Origin: Chloroflexota bacterium
GTDB lineage: Bacteria > Chloroflexota > Dehalococcoidia > Lucifugimonadales > Lucifugimonadaceae
Direction: 5' to 3'
DNA: 64,000 bases
NCBI GenBank assembly: GCA_018650845.1
Contig: JABIFF010000018.1
Coordinates: 1-64,000 of the forward strand
Shown here: positions 17,410 to 57,192 of the stretch, in pieces
Layout: each line of letters opens with the position of its first letter
How positions within the stretch are numbered: position 1 is the first letter of the stretch
Program-made: the position numbers and the translations under genes
The notes under the pieces: model-generated
Told to the model about the DNA's origin: nothing
Seen by the model: only the letters and a program-made list of their open reading frames with translations
Databases searched by the model: none

Positions 17410-18135
17410 TTACTCGGACTGAGCTTTCGATTGAAGTATTTCTAGCGCTTTTCTGGCGGCTTCGCGTTCAGCATCAACTTTTCGTGACCCTGCACCCGAA
17501 GCAACTGAAGATTCGTCGATTACAACTTCCATAGTAAATATTAGATCACTCGGTTCGCCCGATTCAGCGACGAGTTTGTATCGAGGTGGCTTGCTGCCGT
17601 TCCCTTGCAAATACTCTTGCAGTAGCGATTTCGGATCTTTCTTCGTTTCCGTACGTAGTGCTTCGTCTACATGTTCGCCGAGCCAGTGATTCACAAAAGC
17701 AAACGTCTCTTCGTACCCACGGTCGATATAAACAGCGCCTACGACAGCTTCGAACGTATCGGCGAGATTCGATGATCTATTGTCGCCTCCGGCCGCCGCT
17801 TCGCCTTTCCCCATAACAAGCCATTGCCCGAGCCCGATAGTGCGGGCAGCAGCAGCGAGCGTTTCGCGGCGCACTACTTGCGAACGACGAACGGTGAGAT
17901 CGCCTTCGGGCAAGTCTGGGGCGCCTAAGTACATACGATCAGCCACTACCATGCCGACAATCGAGTCACCCAAAAATTCCAACCGTTCGTTAGAAACCGG
18001 TGGGAGATCAGGATGCTCGTTGACGAACGATTGATGAGTCAACGCGAGAACAAGAACGCTCTTGTCGCCAAATTTGACGCCAAGAGCGTGTTCTACCGCC
18101 TCTAGCTGATCTATATCGAGTGGAGTTGTCGGCAA
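17410..18135 (-). CDS. rnc: Ribonuclease III
   Basis: 241 residues. The RNase III signature NERLEFLGDSIVGMV lies at about residues 44-58 with the catalytic acidic residues, and the second acidic site is in NLADTFEAVVGAVYID. A dsRNA-binding domain closes the protein (DPKSLLQEYLQGNGSKPPRYKL to AREAARKALEIL). It processes rRNA precursors and structured mRNAs. The rnc-ftsY order is common in bacteria. The selenoprotein gene ends 6 bases upstream of its start codon, so transcription probably begins before that gene. Confidence 0.97.
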   Translation of the reverse strand: MPTTPLDIDQLEAVEHALGVKFGDKSVLVLALTHQSFVNEHPDLPPVSNERLEFLGDSIVGMVVADRMYLGAPDLPEGDLTVRRSQVVRRETLAAAARTIGLGQWLVMGKGEAAAGGDNRSSNLADTFEAVVGAVYIDRGYEETFAFVNHWLGEHVDEALRTETKKDPKSLLQEYLQGNGSKPPRYKLVAESGEPSDLIFTMEVVIDESSVASGAGSRKVDAEREAARKALEILQSKAQSE

Positions 18136-18141
18136 GTGTGT

Positions 18142-18777
18142 TTAGTCTCGAGCATTGCGCGGCCATGGTGGCTGCGGTCGTTTTAGTTCGCCAAAATATT
18201 TTCGGCTACTTGCAATTCCCATGAAATCTTTGAACGCACTCATTGCTTCATTTTCAGGCGGAGTGAACATTTTTAAAAACGCTGCAGTTCCATCTTCGAA
18301 TACGAAGGTCGGCGTTCCAAAGACTCCATGAGTAAGAGCTTCCTCATGATCAGTGCCGATTTGTGCCAATGATTCCGGAGAATCCATGACATCAGTGAAC
18401 TTGTCGATATCGAGATTAGCATTCGCCGCTATCTCTAGAACTGACTCACGAGTTCGTACATCTTCACGGTCGACGTGCTTAGCGTGGAGAATCTTTTCCA
18501 TGAAATCGTTATGGGCGTCGGTTCCCTGTGCCCGTGCAGCGATACCACCGCGCAATGGCCAAAGCCCTCTGCTCACATAGTCGGCGTCTTGCTCCCACGC
18601 TTTCCAGTCATCGCCTTCTTTGGAGTTGACTTGCTCGAGCGCGAAACTACGCCAGTTGATCTCAAGATCATCCCCAAGTTCTTCTTTCACCTGGGCCAGC
18701 CAAATGCCGGCCTGTCGCACCCATGGTCAGGTGTAGTCGATGAACACATCTATCTTTACTGGCGTGTCAGTTTGCAT
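18142..18777 (-). CDS. DsbA/FrnE-family thiol oxidoreductase, selenoprotein with in-frame UGA
   Basis: A thioredoxin-fold DsbA-type protein. A standard call starts at 18720 and lacks the first beta strand and the active site. Upstream the same frame reads ATG at 18777-18775, then MQTDTPVKIDVFIDYT, a TGA at 18729-18727, and PWVRQAG. DsbA/FrnE relatives read DYxCPWC there, so the UGA sits exactly at the catalytic Cys (residue 17) and should encode selenocysteine; the second Cys of the CxxC is Val. The cis-proline loop FGTPTFVF is intact. Length 211 residues matches the family. A hairpin follows the UGA, and tRNA-Sec is at 1-98. The substrate is unknown. A sequencing error (TGC to TGA) is the alternative. 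Confidence 0.85.
18694..18729 (-). promoter_or_regulatory. Putative bSECIS hairpin after the UGA codon
   Basis: On the minus strand the UGA (18729-18727) is followed by 14 bases and then a 7-bp stem, GGCCGGC with GCTGGCC (one G-U pair), around the loop ATTTG. The apical loop lies 21 bases after the UGA, within the distance known for bacterial SECIS elements. The loop does not begin with the G usually favoured, so the assignment is tentative. Confidence 0.5.
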
Positions 18778-25175: not shown

Positions 25176-26435
25176 TTAGTCGTAGTAAACAGAATCGGCG
25201 CCAGCTTTGCGCCGATCATTACTGTTGATGAATTCTTCTTGAAGTTCAGGCGGAGGATAGGTATATCGCTTGCTCGACATGAGCCAGCCTTCCGCACGTT
25301 CATTACTCGTGCGAACAGTGACATCGGATCGTTCCATCACTGAACTCTTAAGGTGCGTACCTAACCCCGGCTCTGTCGGAGCCATCAGGTAACCATCCTT
25401 GATTTCAAAATCAGGTTCGATGAAATCTCGGTACCAGCCAAGATGCATCGCACGGTTGTACTCCATGATCATCACGTTCGGAGTTGCCATTGCGATATGA
25501 GCGCACGCGAACATGTTTACTGGCCCGACACAGTCGTGTGGAGCTATCGGCATCTGATGCGCTGACGCGAGAATCGCTATTTTCTTCACTTCAGAAATGC
25601 CGCCTGTCCAAGTGAGATCAGGCATCGATATGCGTGCTGCCGGTGATTCGATAAATCGTCGGTGCTGGTATCGCGTCATCAGTCTTTCAGCAGCTGCGAT
25701 AGGCGTCGTTGTGGCATCTTGCAAACGAACGTGCGCGTCTTCGTTGAGGGGCGAAATCAGCTCTTCGTGCCACATTGGGCGCAGTGGTTCCATCTCGCGG
25801 ACTATTCGCAATGCGCTAGGAAGATTCCATTTGGCGTGAGCGTCGTTGGCGACCTCGATCTCCATGCCCAGTTTGTCTCGAATTTCCCTAAGTGGACGAA
25901 GCGCCCAATCAAGATCGTCTTGATACAAGACTTGCCCGTCGGATTCACGAGCTATGAAATCTGTCGGCGACATCTTCATTCCGGTGATGCCCTGATCAAG
26001 TAGGCGTTGAGCGACCTCGACTGGTTTCGTCCACACGTCGTATCCGTCAGTGATATTGCCATACACACCAAGCGTGTTGTAAACCTTGATGCGGTGCCTT
26101 GTGCCTCCTCCGATTATCTCGAAGATCGGCATTTGAAGAACTTGGCCTTTGATATCCCACAAAGCAACATCGATCGCTGATATTGCTCGAAGTTCCGCTC
26201 CGCCATATCCAGCGTGATCTGAAAGCCGGAACATGGTCTGCCAATGGCGTTCGATCTCAGCGGGTTCACGTCCGATTAGGAGCGGACCGAAATGATCGTG
26301 GATAGCGGCTTCGACGGTCGAAGCGCCGTACCAGGTCTCACCAAGCCCAATCACGCCGGTATCAGTGTGAATCTGCACAAAGATGAGATCCGGGAATTGG
26401 CCAACTCGGATGGTCTCGATTTTGGAGATGATCAT
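25176..26435 (-). CDS. Enolase-superfamily (mandelate racemase/MLE) dehydratase
   Basis: 419 residues. Capping domain, then a barrel with metal ligands in EVANDAHAKW (Asp), MWHEELI (Glu) and AAAERLM (Glu). The Asp-His dyad appears as MPDLTWTGG and IAPHDCVGP. The barrel Lys is in GMKMSP. It is the same subfamily as the genes at 6631 and 26432, sharing the RLxxxxQxRxFI segment. Its start codon overlaps the stop of the 26432 gene by 4 bases, so both proteins are made from one message and might form a mixed oligomer or act on related substrates. Substrate unknown. Confidence 0.92.
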   Translation of the reverse strand: MIISKIETIRVGQFPDLIFVQIHTDTGVIGLGETWYGASTVEAAIHDHFGPLLIGREPAEIERHWQTMFRLSDHAGYGGAELRAISAIDVALWDIKGQVLQMPIFEIIGGGTRHRIKVYNTLGVYGNITDGYDVWTKPVEVAQRLLDQGITGMKMSPTDFIARESDGQVLYQDDLDWALRPLREIRDKLGMEIEVANDAHAKWNLPSALRIVREMEPLRPMWHEELISPLNEDAHVRLQDATTTPIAAAERLMTRYQHRRFIESPAARISMPDLTWTGGISEVKKIAILASAHQMPIAPHDCVGPVNMFACAHIAMATPNVMIMEYNRAMHLGWYRDFIEPDFEIKDGYLMAPTEPGLGTHLKSSVMERSDVTVRTSNERAEGWLMSSKRYTYPPPELQEEFINSNDRRKAGADSVYYD

Positions 26436-35233: not shown

Positions 35234-35367
35234 GGGCTAATCCAACCCGGATTTTGTGCGTGCTAAACCTATCGAATCAGTTCCGAAGGAAAGTTAGCAG
35301 AAAGAAAATATGACCGTGCATCCCCGTGTCGCCAGCTGCTTAAAACATAGAAGGCAATACCGACTCT

Positions 35368-35464
35368 AGCCCGGCATTCCCACGGCACCCGAGGTGGTTC
35401 GCTTACCGCTGCTACCTTCCGGTCCTGACGGAGTTCACGAGGCCTCGCCGCGCGGGACCAGGCT
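35368..35464 (-). ncRNA. ffs: Signal recognition particle RNA (4.5S-like)
   Basis: The minus strand contains the SRP RNA core GTCAGGACCGGAAGGTAGCA and the partner strand with GGTGCCGTGGGAATGCC. The ends AGCCTGG and CCGGGCT pair. Size about 97 bases, as for small bacterial SRP RNAs. Ends are estimated from pairing. It lies in a 429-base stretch without protein genes (35234-35662); the rest of that stretch shows only the possible galU promoter. Confidence 0.93.
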
Positions 35465-35650
35465 ATCAACGTCTAAATACTGACTTTAGAGGTCAAAAGC
35501 GAACAGTCTCGACAGGGCATTCAGTCTCGCTATAGCGGATTGCGAGTACAGGGCACCGCTACTGCCCCACCTAGCACGATCAAGTTAATCGTACTACCGA
35601 GTCATCGAATAGTCGCTGAAATACGACACGAATACAGCGTCGATTCCCGT

Positions 35651-51007: not shown

Positions 51008-52204
51008 ATGAAAATCACGGATCTTAAAGTCGCAGTCATCGGCGATGCACCTATCGTTCGGCTCACAACTGATGAAGGAATCGACGGTGTCGGTGCTGCC
51101 GAATACTGGAAGCCCTACCTGAAGCCAATGATCGAGTTCTACAGGGACATGGTTATCGGCAAGGACCCAACGGATGTCGAACGAGTAATGCTCGGCATTC
51201 GCCGTATGGGCTCGTTCAAACCCTGGGGTGCCGCCGTTAGTGCGATCGAAATGGCTCTGTGGGACATTGCGGGTAAAGCTGCGAACTTGCCTGTGTACAA
51301 ACTTCTTGGCGGAAAGATTCGAGACAAGGTTCAGGTTTACAACGGAAACGTTCGGTATGAAATGGAGGGTGACGACCGCAGCCCAGATGCCTACGCCCGG
51401 AACATGCAGAAGATGATCGATCACCCATACAACTTCTCGATCATCAAGCAAGCGGTTTCGTTCCATGGCGGTATGCAGAACGTTCCCGATTTCTACTACG
51501 GCACTCCAACAACTACAACGCGTTACCCAAACCGTGGCACGATAACTGCCAAAGGCTTTAAATACCTTGTGTCACGCATCGAGGCGATGCTCGACGTATG
51601 TGGCGATGAAGTTGGGCTTGCTTTGGACTGTGGCCCAGGAATGACTGTGCCGGATGCCTTAAAGTTGGCGAAAGAGCTTGAAGGCTCGAACATCATGTGG
51701 CTCGAAGACATGATTACTGGTGACTACTCTCCGTTCGTTCTTGCCGATCTGTACACACAGGTCACGCCGTACACGTCAACTCCGATTCACACTGGTGAAC
51801 AGATTTACCTGCGTCAGAACTTCGTAGAACTAATTGAACGAAACGCTGTGAACGTGTTGGGTCCTGACGTCGCAGACGTCGGTGGTATTGCCGAGATGAA
51901 GTTCATTGCCGAATACGCTGATCTTCACGGCATCCTATTCGCACCGCACGGTACGTTCGACGGTCTAATTGGTCTTGCCGCACAAACTCACATGGCTGCG
52001 GTATTGCCAGACAACTACATAGCGTTCGAACTTCCTCAGCCAGACCCACTATGGTGGCTCGACATTATGGAAGGTGGCGAACAGTTCAAAGTAACCGACA
52101 GTCACATCGATGTGCCAGACACACCGGGTCTGGGACTAACCTTCATCCCTGAAGAAGGCAAAAAATACCTTCGTGAAGAGGACGCTGGTTTCTTCGACGA
52201 CTAA
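51008..52204 (+). CDS. Enolase-superfamily dehydratase, tandem array member 1
   Basis: 398 residues. Capping domain with MKITDLKVAVIGDAPIVRL, then barrel. Lys in FSIIKQAVS, metal ligands Asp (LALDCGPGMT), Glu (MWLEDMI) and Glu (HTGEQIYL), dyad Asp (GPDVADVGG) and His (FAPHG). The end FFDD is shared by all five. GGAG lies 7 bases before the ATG. First gene of a five-gene run, with 15-base gaps to member 2 and from 2 to 3. It should abstract a proton next to a carboxylate; substrate unknown. Confidence 0.93.
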   Translation: MKITDLKVAVIGDAPIVRLTTDEGIDGVGAAEYWKPYLKPMIEFYRDMVIGKDPTDVERVMLGIRRMGSFKPWGAAVSAIEMALWDIAGKAANLPVYKLLGGKIRDKVQVYNGNVRYEMEGDDRSPDAYARNMQKMIDHPYNFSIIKQAVSFHGGMQNVPDFYYGTPTTTTRYPNRGTITAKGFKYLVSRIEAMLDVCGDEVGLALDCGPGMTVPDALKLAKELEGSNIMWLEDMITGDYSPFVLADLYTQVTPYTSTPIHTGEQIYLRQNFVELIERNAVNVLGPDVADVGGIAEMKFIAEYADLHGILFAPHGTFDGLIGLAAQTHMAAVLPDNYIAFELPQPDPLWWLDIMEGGEQFKVTDSHIDVPDTPGLGLTFIPEEGKKYLREEDAGFFDD

Positions 52205-52219
52205 GGATTACCGCCGAGA

Positions 52220-53413
52220 ATGAAAATCACCGACCTGAAAGTCGCAATCATTGGCGACGCCCCTATTGTCCGAGTCACAACTGACGAGGGAATCGATGGC
52301 GTTGGCGCTGGTGAAACTTTCAAGCCGTACCTCAAGCCGATGATCGAGTTCTACCGGGACTTGATCATCGGCAAAGACCCAACCGACGTAGAACGCGTCA
52401 TGCTCGGCATACGTCGCATGGGTTCGTTCAAGCCGTGGGGAACGGCGGTCAGTGCTATAGAGATGGCACTCTGGGACATTGCCGGCAAAGCGGCCGGAGT
52501 TCCGTCGTACAAGTTACTGGGCGGAAAAATCCGAGACAAGGTTCAGGTCTACAACGGGAACGTTCGCTTTAAACGCGAAGGAAATGAACCCGAGCATTTC
52601 GCTGCCGATATGCAGGTAATGAAGGATCACCCTTACAACTTCTCGATCATCAAGCAGCCGGTGTCGTTTCACGGTGGCATGCACCGGTATATGGATGATT
52701 TCCATTTTGGGACGGCAGTACAGAACCGACGTTATCCAAATCGCGGCACGATAACGCCAAAGGGATTCAAGTACTTGCTCGCCTGTATCGAGGCGATGCA
52801 GGACGTTCTTGGCGATGACGTCGGGCTTGCTTTGGATTGTGGTCCGGGCATGACTGTTCCAGACGCCTTGAAACTGGCGAAAGAGCTTGAGGGATCCAAC
52901 ATCATGTGGCTCGAAGACATGGTGATCGGAAACTATCACCCGTACGAATTGGCCGATCAGTACACCCAAATCACCCCGTACACATCAACTCCAATTCACA
53001 CGGGAGAGCAGCTTTACCTTCGACAGAATTGTGTTGATCTGATCGAACGAAACGCAGTGAACGTACTTGGACCTGATGTCGCAGACGTTGGCGGAATCGC
53101 CGAAATGAAGTTCATCGCTGAATACGCCGACCTACACGGTATTTTGTTTGCACCGCACGGAACGTTCAACGGCTTGATTGGTCTTGCTGCTCAGACTCAC
53201 ATGGCTGCAGTCCTGCCAGAAAATTTCATAGCATTCGAACTTCCTACAGCGGATCCAGCTTGGTGGCTAGACATCATGGAAGGCGGCGAACAGTTCGCTG
53301 TTACCGACAGTCACATCGATGTTCCAGACACTCCAGGTCTTGGGCTGACATTCATCCCTGAAGAAGGGGGAAAATACCTTCGGGAAGAGGACGCTGGATT
53401 CTTCGATGACTAA
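52220..53413 (+). CDS. Enolase-superfamily dehydratase, tandem array member 2
   Basis: 397 residues, nearest to member 1 (the N-terminal 60 residues differ at few positions). All catalytic sites are kept: IIKQ, LDCGPGMT, MWLEDMV, HTGEQLYL, GPDVADVGG, APHG. The most variable part is residues 120-175 (FKREGNEPEHFAADMQ and YMDDFHFGTAVQN), which lies in the lid region and may set specificity. Clearly a recent duplicate, in the same operon, with 15 bases to both sides. Confidence 0.93.
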   Translation: MKITDLKVAIIGDAPIVRVTTDEGIDGVGAGETFKPYLKPMIEFYRDLIIGKDPTDVERVMLGIRRMGSFKPWGTAVSAIEMALWDIAGKAAGVPSYKLLGGKIRDKVQVYNGNVRFKREGNEPEHFAADMQVMKDHPYNFSIIKQPVSFHGGMHRYMDDFHFGTAVQNRRYPNRGTITPKGFKYLLACIEAMQDVLGDDVGLALDCGPGMTVPDALKLAKELEGSNIMWLEDMVIGNYHPYELADQYTQITPYTSTPIHTGEQLYLRQNCVDLIERNAVNVLGPDVADVGGIAEMKFIAEYADLHGILFAPHGTFNGLIGLAAQTHMAAVLPENFIAFELPTADPAWWLDIMEGGEQFAVTDSHIDVPDTPGLGLTFIPEEGGKYLREEDAGFFDD

Positions 53414-53428
53414 GGACCTCCGCAAACT

Positions 53429-54631
53429 ATGAGAATCACAGACCTAAAAGTAGCCATCATCGGCAATGCTCCTGTTGTTCGAATCACAACTGATGAAGGA
53501 ATTGACGGCGTTGGTGCGGGACAGCCAAGCAAGCCTTATCTAAAGCCGATGATCGAGTTCTACAGGGACATGATCATAGGCAGAGACCCCACGGATGTTG
53601 AGCGAGTGATGCTTGGCATTCGTCGTATGGGGGCTTTTAAGCCATGGGGTACTGGCGTAAGCGCAATCGAAATGGCGCTATGGGACATTGCGGGTAAAGC
53701 AGCGGGACTTCCCGTTTACAAACTACTTGGCGGCAAAGTTCGAGACGAAGTTCAGGTCTACAACGGGGTGGTCCGCTATCCGCGCGAAGGCAACGAACCC
53801 GAGCACTACGCCGAAAACATGCAGAAGATGAAGGATCACCCCTTCAACTTTTCGATCATCAAACAAGCCGTTTCGTTCCACGGAAAAATGGAGCGCGATT
53901 TCGACGATTTTTACTATGGTGAACCCGTGTTCGTCGATCGTCATCCAGGTCATCCAAATCGTGGAGCGATTACGCCTAAAGGTTTCAAGTACATGCTCAA
54001 GTGCATCGAAGCGATGCTCGATGTGCTTGGTGACGATGTTGGTTTAGCGCTCGACTGCGGCCCCGGCATGACTGTTCCCGATACTCTCAAGCTTGCGAAA
54101 GAACTTGAGGGATCGAACATCATGTGGCTCGAAGACGCTATTACCGGCGACTTCAATCCCTACGTACTCGCCGATCTCTATACGCAGGTCACGCCTTACA
54201 CATCGACGCCAATTCATACCGGAGAGCAGATATACCTGCGCCAGAATTTCGTCGAACTAATTGAACGCAACGCTGTAAACGTGCTTGGACCCGACCCAAT
54301 GGACGTTGGTGGGCTAGCCGAGATGAAGTTCATCGCCGAGTATGCTGATCTTCATGGCATCCAGTTCGCTCCGCACGGAATTTTCGGTGGGCTTATAGGA
54401 CTCGCTGCACAAACTCACCTTGCTGCTGCTCTGCCTGACAACTTCATTGCGTTCGAACTCCCTCAGGCAAGACCTGAATGGTGGAGCGACATCATGGCTG
54501 GCGGTGCGCAATTCCCAGTAGTTGACAGCCATATCGAGGTGCCTGAAACGATAGGACTCGGCGTGACGTTCATCCCTGAAGAAGCCAAAAAGTACCTACG
54601 TGAAGAAGACTCTGACTTCTTCGACGACTAG
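53429..54631 (+). CDS. Enolase-superfamily dehydratase, tandem array member 3
   Basis: 400 residues. Catalytic sites kept (IIKQ, LDCGPGMT, MWLEDAI, HTGEQIYL, GPDPMDVGG, APHG). Compared with members 1 and 2 the lid reads RDFDDFYYGEPVFVDRH, three residues longer, and APHGIFGG replaces APHGTFDG next to the catalytic His. These differences suggest another substrate. 50 bases separate it from member 4. Confidence 0.93.
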   Translation: MRITDLKVAIIGNAPVVRITTDEGIDGVGAGQPSKPYLKPMIEFYRDMIIGRDPTDVERVMLGIRRMGAFKPWGTGVSAIEMALWDIAGKAAGLPVYKLLGGKVRDEVQVYNGVVRYPREGNEPEHYAENMQKMKDHPFNFSIIKQAVSFHGKMERDFDDFYYGEPVFVDRHPGHPNRGAITPKGFKYMLKCIEAMLDVLGDDVGLALDCGPGMTVPDTLKLAKELEGSNIMWLEDAITGDFNPYVLADLYTQVTPYTSTPIHTGEQIYLRQNFVELIERNAVNVLGPDPMDVGGLAEMKFIAEYADLHGIQFAPHGIFGGLIGLAAQTHLAAALPDNFIAFELPQARPEWWSDIMAGGAQFPVVDSHIEVPETIGLGVTFIPEEAKKYLREEDSDFFDD

Positions 54632-54681
54632 AATCTCATCCGCACTAGACGAACAGCTGCTGAGCAGCACACGGAGCTGAA

Positions 54682-55881
54682 ATGAAAATTACTGGCATGA
54701 AAGTCGCAATCATCGGGAATCACCCGGTGGTGCGCATCACAACCGACGAAGGTATCGAAGGCATCGGCGCCGCTGAATTAGCCAAGCCGTACCTCAAGCC
54801 TATGATCGAGTTCTACCGAGACATGATTGTCGGTAAAGACCCGACGGACGTTGAACGTGTAATGCTCGGCATACGTCGCATGGGCTCGTTCAAGCCATGG
54901 GGAGCTGCCGTCAGCGCAATCGAATTTGCACTGTGGGACATCGCCGGTAAAGCTGCCAACTTGCCGATCTACAAGCTGCTCGGTGGCAAGATTCGAGACA
55001 AGGTTCAGGTCTACAACGGCAATGTTCGATTCAAGATGAACGGGAAAGAGCCTGAACACTACGCCGAAGTAATGCAGAAGATGAAGGACAGCCCTGAAAA
55101 CTTCTCGATCATCAAACAGGGAATTGCATTCCACGGCGATATGGCCACCGAAGTTCCCGACTTCTACTACGGCACGCCTTCTACCGGTCTGGGCGGTCGA
55201 CACCCCAACCGCGGCTTGATGACCCCAAAGGGATTCAAGCACATGATCAAGTGCGTCGAAGCAATGCTCGACGTTCTGGGCGATGACGTTGGCCTAGCGC
55301 TTGATTGCGGTCCTGGATTCACTGTTCCTGATGCCTTGAAACTTGCCAAAGAAGTTGAAGGCACGAACGTGATGTGGCTCGAAGACATGCTTACGGGGGA
55401 CTACACGCCGTACGTCCTCGCCGATCTGTACACGCAGGTCACGCCATACACATCGACCAATATTCACACTGGCGAGCAGATTTACTTGCGTCAGAACTTT
55501 GTGGAACTGATCGAACGAAACGCTGTAAACGTACTGGGACCTGACCCTGCTGACGTTGGTGGCTTGCAGGAAATGAAGTTCATCGCTGAATACGCCGATC
55601 TTCACGGAATCTTGTTCGCACCGCACGGAACTGTCGATGGCCTGATTGGTCTTGCGGCTCATGTGCAGCTTGCCGCTGTATTGCCAGAGAACTACATCGC
55701 ATTCGAGCTTCCAACTGGCAAGCCCGAATGGTGGTACGACATTCTCGAAGGCTCCGATAAGTTCGGTGTTACAGATAGTCACATTGATGTGAACGATGCA
55801 CCGGGACTCGGCATCAGCTTCATCCCTGAAGAGGCGAAGAAGTACCTCAGGGAAGAAGACTCAGACTTCTTCGACGATTAG
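54682..55881 (+). CDS. Enolase-superfamily dehydratase, tandem array member 4
   Basis: 399 residues. Sites kept (IIKQGIAFHG, LDCGPGFT, MWLEDML, HTGEQIYL with NIHTGEQ instead of PIHTGEQ, GPDPADVGG, APHGTVDG). GGAG is 5 bases before the ATG. A double palindrome follows in the gap before member 5, so transcription may be reset or regulated there. Confidence 0.93.
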   Translation: MKITGMKVAIIGNHPVVRITTDEGIEGIGAAELAKPYLKPMIEFYRDMIVGKDPTDVERVMLGIRRMGSFKPWGAAVSAIEFALWDIAGKAANLPIYKLLGGKIRDKVQVYNGNVRFKMNGKEPEHYAEVMQKMKDSPENFSIIKQGIAFHGDMATEVPDFYYGTPSTGLGGRHPNRGLMTPKGFKHMIKCVEAMLDVLGDDVGLALDCGPGFTVPDALKLAKEVEGTNVMWLEDMLTGDYTPYVLADLYTQVTPYTSTNIHTGEQIYLRQNFVELIERNAVNVLGPDPADVGGLQEMKFIAEYADLHGILFAPHGTVDGLIGLAAHVQLAAVLPENYIAFELPTGKPEWWYDILEGSDKFGVTDSHIDVNDAPGLGISFIPEEAKKYLREEDSDFFDD

Positions 55882-55891
55882 ATAGCTGGCT

Positions 55892-55938
55892 CGCTCGAAT
55901 CATTTGAGAACAATCAGACCTCTCGAATGATTCGAGCG
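55892..55938 (+). promoter_or_regulatory. Double palindrome between enolase genes 4 and 5
   Basis: Arms 55892-55909 and 55921-55938 can form an 18-bp hairpin with one G-U pair and an 11-base loop. Each arm also contains a near-palindrome CTCGAAT-N-ATTYGAG. No T run follows, so an operator pair or processing/attenuation hairpin is more likely than a terminator. Confidence 0.6.
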
Positions 55939-55989
55939 TAGAATGCCGCTGCAGAAAATATCTACATTGGCTAGGACCTCGGAGTTGAG

Positions 55990-57192
55990 ATGAAGATCAC
56001 TGATATTAAGTACGCCGTCATCGGAGAAAATCCCGTTATTCGGATTACTACCGACGAGGGGATCGACGGAATCGGTGGTGCCGAGCGGTCGCGTAACGAG
56101 CCGTTCTTCGGTCCACAGATCGAGTATTACAAGAACATGATCGTGGGACTCGATCCGACCGACGTAGAGCGTGTGCTTCTCAGAATCAGGCGCACCGGTG
56201 GTTTCAAGCCATGGGGATCAGGTGTCAGTGCGATCGAAATCGCCCTTTGGGACATCGCCGGAAAAGCGCTTGGCGCCCCCATATACAAGCTGATGGGCGG
56301 AAAGATCCGAGACAAAGTACAGGTATACAACGGCGGTTACCGCAAACCAGTCGCCGGATACCAACCTGAAGATTTCGCAGCTTCAGCGAAGTACATGAAG
56401 GAGCTGCCCCAGAACTTTTCGATCGTCAAGCAGGGTGTCGCATTCCACGGATCGCCAACTCTCAAAGACATGCCTGATTTCCACTACGGGGAGTACATCG
56501 CCGACGAGAAATATGGGAACCGCGGCGTGATGACCGAAAAGGGATTCAACATCACCGTTGATTCTGTGATTGCGATGAAAGAAGTGCTTGGTCCTGATGT
56601 TGGACTCGCTCTTGACTGCGGGCCAGGAATGACCGCATCAGACACTTTGCGTTTGGCAAAAGCACTTGAGCCATATCACCTCATGTGGTTGGAAGACACA
56701 ATCACCGGCGACTACACGCCATATGTTCACCCAGAGTATTTCCTACAGGTGACTCCCTACACGTCGACTCCAATTCACACCGGAGAACAGGTGTATCTAC
56801 GGCACGGCTTCAAGGATTTGATCGAGCAACACGCAGTTGACGTTGTTGGTCCCGACCCGATGGATGTTGGCGGAATTTCCGAGCTGAAGTGGATTTGCGA
56901 GTTCGCCGATCTTCACAACATCCAGATGGCTCCGCACGGAACGGCGGATGGAATTATCGGAGTCGCAGCTCTGACGCAGGTATCGGCTGCCATGCCAGAT
57001 AACTTCCTCGCTTTCGAGTTGCCTTTGGTAAGCCCCGATTGGTGGTACGACATTTTCGAAGGCAGCGAAGCACTTAAAGTAACCGACAGTCACATCACCG
57101 TGCCTGACGCTCCCGGGCTCGGAATCACGTTCCGAGCAGAAGAAGCGAAGCGATATCTCAGTGAAGAGCACGCCGGATTCTTCGACGATTAA
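55990..57192 (+). CDS. Enolase-superfamily dehydratase, tandem array member 5
   Basis: 400 residues, the most diverged member: GAERSRNEPFFGPQIEYYKNM replaces the KPYLKPMIEFYRDM segment, and the third metal site is HTGEQVYLRHGF. Other sites are kept (IVKQGVAFHG, LDCGPGMT, MWLEDTI, GPDPMDVGG, APHGTADG). GGAG lies 5 bases before the ATG. It follows a 108-base gap with a double palindrome and a TAGAAT that could be a -10, so it may have its own promoter. Confidence 0.93.
   Translation: MKITDIKYAVIGENPVIRITTDEGIDGIGGAERSRNEPFFGPQIEYYKNMIVGLDPTDVERVLLRIRRTGGFKPWGSGVSAIEIALWDIAGKALGAPIYKLMGGKIRDKVQVYNGGYRKPVAGYQPEDFAASAKYMKELPQNFSIVKQGVAFHGSPTLKDMPDFHYGEYIADEKYGNRGVMTEKGFNITVDSVIAMKEVLGPDVGLALDCGPGMTASDTLRLAKALEPYHLMWLEDTITGDYTPYVHPEYFLQVTPYTSTPIHTGEQVYLRHGFKDLIEQHAVDVVGPDPMDVGGISELKWICEFADLHNIQMAPHGTADGIIGVAALTQVSAAMPDNFLAFELPLVSPDWWYDIFEGSEALKVTDSHITVPDAPGLGITFRAEEAKRYLSEEHAGFFDD

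Follow-up and report, generated by a model that had tools for sequence, protein, structure and literature searches.

A reading frame on the minus strand of a 64,000-nucleotide stretch of Chloroflexota DNA (the whole stretch is referred to here as the window) encodes a DsbA-like protein and is interrupted near its start by a single in-frame TGA, which raises the question whether this codon ends translation or is decoded as selenocysteine (Sec). An earlier note on the window, made from the letters alone, had claimed that the frame extends upstream of its apparent start, across one TGA, to an ATG. Direct reading bore this out: the frame runs from an ATG to a TAA over the full length given in Table 1, and its only in-frame TGA is codon 17, in the context MQTDTPVKIDVFIDYT-U-PWV. 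Judged from sequence comparison, the gene, which appears shortened by a stop codon, very probably encodes a small redox protein whose active site has Sec, a rare amino acid that contains selenium.

Table 1. Positions of the Sec-DsbA gene and of the features discussed with it, numbered along the window.
Feature	Coordinates	Strand	Description	Basis
Sec-DsbA gene	18142–18777	minus	predicted DsbA-like protein of 211 residues with Sec17, probably cytosolic	read directly; Pfam DSBA; relatives
UGA codon, putative Sec residue 17	18727–18729	minus		relatives covering this region have either Cys or an in-frame TGA here
candidate bacterial SECIS hairpin	18694–18712	minus	GGCCGGC/GCUGGCC stem (7 bp), AUUUG loop	
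rnc, ribonuclease III	17410–18135	minus	directly downstream of the Sec-DsbA gene	Pfam Ribonucleas_3_3 (113 bits) and dsrm
tRNA-Sec	1–98	minus	anticodon TCA	ARAGORN; Rfam RF01852

Among 40 related genomes searched, the genome of the window included, 31 contained a match, with one in-frame TGA in 28 of them and Cys in three (G023, G024 and G032), in all three at the column of the TGA. Alignment placed the TGA at the same column of the same peptide in 26 of the 28 genomes, the matches in G004 and G012 being fragments outside this column check. When the genome search was pooled with the loci of named relatives, and two fragments without the active-site part (L023 and L090) were dropped from the counts, 89 distinct genes with the motif were obtained, of which 75 have Sec (TGA verified for each) and 14 have Cys at column 17. 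The residue is followed by P-[WFY]-V in all 89, and U-P-[WFY]-V is the motif of all 75 distinct Sec genes. The expectation of the earlier note that relatives would have Cys at the column of U17 was thus confirmed in every relative without TGA, and the comparison likewise supports its proposal of a DsbA-family selenoprotein whose Sec aligns with the catalytic Cys. The TGA is also present in the record of a cultured strain, JH1073 (L039).

The codons preceding the TGA provide a further line of evidence. Compared with the window, 15 genes from the same genus show 32 synonymous and 13 non-synonymous codon differences in the nine codons 5' of the TGA, and third positions account for 44 of the 56 base changes; because of this bias within the genus, we regard the stretch as translated and protein-coding. 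Over all 74 other distinct genes, which are far more diverged, the same nine codons show 125 synonymous and 258 non-synonymous differences. It is barely credible that the UGA is a true stop in a gene that has decayed or been misread and whose translation restarts at the GTG at 18720. The longest conventional ORF of the frame does begin at this GTG, 3' of the TGA, and comprises 192 residues, but such a stop is at odds with the conservation of the TGA at an identical column across many species, including the record of the cultured strain, with the third-position bias 5' of it and with the presence of SelA, SelB, SelD and tRNA-Sec. A sequencing error was rejected together with the true stop, on the conservation of the TGA, the coding bias and the Sec machinery.

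The tRNA-Sec that the earlier note had placed in the window was found both by ARAGORN and with the Rfam model RF01852 (positions 5–98, 66.4 bits, cut-off 47). A check for selA and selB, which the note had also suggested, found both in the host's own genome with NCBIfam models, and the Sec reading held. Scores of SelA and of SelB exceeded the NCBIfam cut-off in 37 of the 40 genomes each, and every one of the 28 TGA-form genomes had both. The genomes lacking both proteins were G022, which has no Sec-DsbA homologue, and G023 and G024, two of the three with the Cys form; a loss of Sec in these two would fit the absence of SelA and SelB. In the third, G032, the Cys form (L029, G032:C17) occurs while SelA and SelB stay above their cut-offs. 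The SelD of the host's own genome has an in-frame TGA as well (L119, G000:C21:78185-79111, read CAGUAGK) and is itself a selenoprotein candidate, with a hairpin shortly 3' of its UGA.

Two of the features by which a bacterial selenoprotein is recognised, a UGA aligned with the catalytic Cys of homologues and SelA, SelB, SelD and tRNA-Sec in the genome, are found here, and we consider the comparative evidence for insertion of Sec at codon 17 to be strong. The comparison alone does not give the identity of the inserted residue, and decoding of the UGA as another amino acid, by general reassignment or leaky readthrough, would also produce a full-length protein. We regard this as a very remote prospect in view of the presence of SelA, SelB, SelD and tRNA-Sec and of Cys as the aligned alternative in all 14 distinct genes that lack the TGA. 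In addition, L014 and L026 end their Sec-DsbA genes with TGA, which seemingly also serves as a stop.

Sec insertion in bacteria would further call for a SECIS element behind the UGA. A hairpin 14 bases 3' of the UGA had been described in the earlier note, and an arm starting with GGCC does begin at this distance. The window hairpin is only a fair match to the rule for bacterial SECIS elements, and its support comes from the gene set rather than from the hairpin alone. Taken by itself, the window gives mixed evidence. A 50-base stretch of the window folded no better than its dinucleotide shuffles (z −0.51), with a minimum-energy fold that differs from the candidate hairpin, and a 32-base stretch gave z −2.29 against synonymous-codon shuffles. 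After this unconvincing fold of a single sequence, synonymous-codon shuffles were adopted on the whole gene set. In the stretch from +10 to +42, the 75 Sec genes folded better than their shuffles (mean z −1.36), with p of 0.05 or less in 25 of them. The excess was smaller in the 13 Cys genes (mean z −0.47, p of 0.05 or less in none), a small set whose base make-up differs from that of the Sec set. In a scan along the gene with 35 of the 75 Sec genes, offsets 1 and 13 gave z of −1.38 and −1.51, and the values at the remaining 31 offsets lay between −0.41 and +0.39.

A stem resembling CAGCC/GGCUG with a GUGU loop is present at the hairpin position in 34 of the 75 Sec sequences. RNAalifold on the 34 sequences with GTGTGG returned a 5-bp stem that was paired in 33 or 34 of them and showed almost no covariation; it returned no common structure over all 75 Sec sequences or over the 41 without GTGTGG. 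Bacterial SECIS elements require a G early in the apical loop; 52 of the 75 sequences have a G at this place in one of their three best hairpins, and it is absent from both hairpins listed for the window. A scan with Rfam at a loose threshold gave only one match, at chance level. A SECIS hairpin 3' of the UGA is in our view likely, not proven.

With 60.4 bits (cut-off 25.6), the window protein is assigned to the Pfam family DSBA (PF01323), while the Rv2466c-like family PF22234 scored barely above its cut-off (28.5 versus 27 bits). No NCBIfam model scored above its cut-off for this protein, and automatic annotation may therefore lose the active site. An AlphaFold model built from 41 sequences (mean pLDDT 92) has a DsbA-type fold. 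The thioredoxin fold has its first long helix at residues 18–37, and residue 17, entered as Cys, stands directly before it. In two alignments with U entered as C, A1 with 29 rows and A2 with 41 rows (every second row of the named loci, 40 in total, plus the window), the residues D14, U17, P18, V20, W26, P156, K169, E197, K199, P201 and P204 are invariant and a PQPPWP tail is nearly so. P156 is conserved in all 41 rows and lies in a GTPT loop, at the place of the cis-Pro of thioredoxin folds. No signal peptide was seen by eye in the window protein, which starts with MQTDTPVKIDVFIDYT, and strand 1 begins at residue 7 of the model; the product, estimated at about 24 kDa, is probably cytosolic.

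The window protein contains no Cys at all, as do the products of 54 of the 75 distinct Sec genes, and in an alignment of 112 rows Cys occurs in at most seven rows at any column other than 17. A conserved resolving Cys is thus missing, and an outside thiol should be needed. The CxxC motif of canonical DsbA and FrnE is not present, since the fourth position is Val in all 89 distinct genes. The earlier note had called a Sec site without a second Cys unusual, which is correct with respect to DsbA but does not apply within the subfamily, where the second Cys is absent from 89 of 89 distinct genes, Cys forms included; a DsbA selenoprotein with the motif UxxV was, moreover, listed as early as 2008 (PMC2398784).

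An even draw of 301 genomes from the phylum, for which a completeness of at least 80 was asked, gave matches in 46 genomes at 1e-20. Among the 20 of these more distant relatives that were read, the motif is C- or U-P-x-[VAT] in 18, and a second Cys is present in the other two; three are U-P-x-V forms, and one of the two with a second Cys carries Sec in the motif UPWC. The second Cys thus appears to be absent from the wider group and not from the Sec form alone. G063 and G249, each with one TGA, were rejected as Sec forms: their TGA is close to the C terminus, and Cys occupies the active site. The matches in G123 and G326 contain one TAA each.

Taken together, we think it very likely that the gene encodes a selenoprotein, a DsbA-like redox protein of the thioredoxin fold with one selenol, which is represented by a Cys form in SAR202 genomes without SelA and SelB. 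SelB, Sec-tRNA-Sec and the hairpin 3' of the UGA would act together to let the ribosome insert Sec at codon 17. The single selenol would then take the place of the attacking Cys, in a motif without a second Cys, and would most likely attack a disulfide, a sulfenic acid or a peroxide. The resulting selenosulfide or selenenic acid would be resolved by an outside thiol, either thioredoxin or a small thiol. The redox function, the thiol partner, the details of the SECIS element and the cytosolic location are what we infer beyond the insertion of Sec. With regard to candidate thiol routes, neither BshC nor GCS2 was found in the two genomes searched, and the MshC model gave one match in each of the two, only below its cut-off (307 versus 485 bits), which may be a cysteinyl-tRNA synthetase.

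Alternatively, the selenoprotein could belong to the DsbA superfamily as an enzyme without redox function, of the isomerase or kappa-class glutathione transferase type, in which the selenol serves as nucleophile towards a small molecule. Kappa-class glutathione transferases are among the fold matches (ranks 19, 22 and 24), as is a possible 2-hydroxychromene-2-carboxylate isomerase (rank 35), and a site with a single nucleophile would suit such an enzyme, as would the PQPPWP tail, which might hold a ligand. However, exchange of Sec and Cys as the attacking residue, combined with a kept Pro loop as around Pro156, is typical of thiol redox proteins, and GCS2, the gene missing from the two genomes searched, is one route to glutathione. 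We therefore rate a non-redox enzyme as unlikely and favor the one-selenol redox protein.

Directly downstream, rnc starts after a gap of six bases (counted to its listed TTG start), and the two genes are probably co-transcribed. Further 3' of rnc follow a gene for an ftsY-like SRP GTPase and one for a DUF2298 membrane protein, and a poly(A) polymerase-like gene lies upstream of the Sec-DsbA gene in divergent orientation. In 70 of the 78 named loci with sufficient room, Cys forms included, rnc is found within 400 bases 3', and from the conserved gene order the arrangement looks like an old operon. The six-base gap and this frequent proximity could also suggest that the selenoprotein mainly couples rnc to selenium, with Sec shortage causing a stop at the UGA, an untranslated message and less rnc. 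The neighbourhood is, however, also kept with the Cys form (L073-L078), so Sec is not needed for it, and we judge such a coupling to be highly improbable. The wider proposal that SAR202 relies on a Cys-free one-selenol DsbA-like enzyme as a core redox catalyst, encoded in a fixed operon with rnc, and that selenium supply sets both its redox activity and RNase III output through decoding of the UGA, appears to us very unlikely as well; a redox protein whose gene lies with rnc in what looks like an old operon is the reading that we retain.

Elsewhere in the window, five MR_MLE genes (mandelate racemase/enolase superfamily) are arranged in tandem on the plus strand (51008-57192), and one more is found on the minus strand (25176-26435), consistent with a report of numerous genes of the enolase superfamily in isolates of SAR202 (PMC10444878). 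A bacterial large SRP RNA (35314-35579, minus strand, 171 bits) is an ordinary feature.

The host clusters with Candidatus Lucifugimonas (SAR202), and Candidatus Lucifugimonas marina JH1073 is the nearest among the relatives listed. Of 207 named relatives, the best 80 are labeled as Chloroflexi/Chloroflexota, Dehalococcoidia, SAR202 or Lucifugimonas, in addition to three Thermomicrobiales. Two scans of viral contigs yielded no relative, and a viral origin was rejected. Two adjacent copies of the gene, each with its own in-frame TGA, occur in L089 (4051-4692 and from 5013) and in L105 (from 4213 and from 4998). On an unrooted tree of 82 genes, of which 70 have Sec and 12 have Cys, the two residues interchange at least four times, be it by gain or by loss of Sec; the Cys forms closest to the window sit among Sec forms. 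The tree comprises 80 rows from 80 named loci, the window and L029; two loci contributed two rows each, and L090 and L083 were left out, the latter, with its many unread bases, being excluded from the folding test and the row set as well. L029, L072 and L104 form long branches, and their placement is unsure.

From the sequences compared, the Sec-DsbA gene is common in marine SAR202 bacteria, a clade that has been called ubiquitous in the ocean (PMC10444878), and the finding points to the use of Sec in this clade. The paper on the cultivation of Lucifugimonas describes aerobic, light-inhibited growth, and no word starting with 'selen' occurs in its main text (PMC10444878). Since the cultured relative shares 88–90% identity with the window protein, selenium dependence can be tested.

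Among solved structures, DR2335 of Deinococcus radiodurans (PDB 7dk9 and 7dka; native and C24S) ranks first both by sequence profile (2.1e-21) and by fold (TM score 0.80). At 22% identity, DR2335 shares the single-nucleophile site, which in its case is C-P-Y-A, with Cys in place of Sec and Ala in place of Val; the alignment stops at RPVP near the end of the chain, without the PPWP tail. FrnE (5cnw) belongs to the same superfamily, is a weaker match than DR2335 and shows the two-cysteine site CPWC in the alignment. Another weaker match from this superfamily is Rv2466c (PF22234), which uses mycothiol and has a two-cysteine CPWC site, whereas Sec-DsbA has U-P-W-V. DR2335 is predicted to be cytosolic, and a review knows of no experimental data on its function or expression (PMC8945050). 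Canonical periplasmic DsbA differs in that a signal peptide is expected. The DsbA-like form 1 (UxxC) has Sec in the first position, as in Sec-DsbA, but keeps the second Cys (PMC1088965, PMC13188914). The distant DsbA relative with U-P-W-C (L137, G164:C212), from another family of the phylum, is a candidate selenoprotein of this UxxC type.

Selenoproteins in the phylum Chloroflexi as such are not new, as a survey of 2006 gave three selenoproteins in three families for it (PMC1794560). Joint literature searches for selenoprotein or selenocysteine with SAR202 found no paper on selenoproteins of this clade. Two published entries resemble Sec-DsbA more closely. Table 2 of a study of the Global Ocean Sampling data lists 'DsbA 3, pfam01323, UxxV', with five Sec sequences in three samples and 72 Cys homologues (Zhang and Gladyshev, 2008; PMC2398784). 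Compared by domain and motif rather than by sequence, the two have pfam01323 and UxxV in common, and the motif of Sec-DsbA fits DsbA 3 well; as listed there, DsbA 3 comes without host or gene context. Table 1 of a 2026 review, citing Peng et al. (2016), lists a 'DsbA-like protein form 2' (PF01323, DxxUP, MDP6049977.1; PMC13188914). Sec-DsbA, in which D14, U17 and P18 are invariant, shares PF01323 and D-x-x-U-P with form 2 and is perhaps of the same kind, a formal fit of the motif with MDP6049977.1 compared by its description. Form 2 also carries the label crotonase/enoyl-CoA hydratase (PMC13188914), which in a 2022 review belongs to another domain, PRK06023, given without a motif (PMC9312934); the word crotonase is absent from the main text of Peng et al. 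(2016; PMC5029168), and nothing in the Sec-DsbA protein resembles a crotonase. This kind of selenoprotein is already in print, and Sec-DsbA is a well-placed further member, to which our analysis adds a host clade with a cultured member, an anatomy with one selenol only, Cys forms from genomes that lack Sec insertion, and a position before rnc that is conserved.
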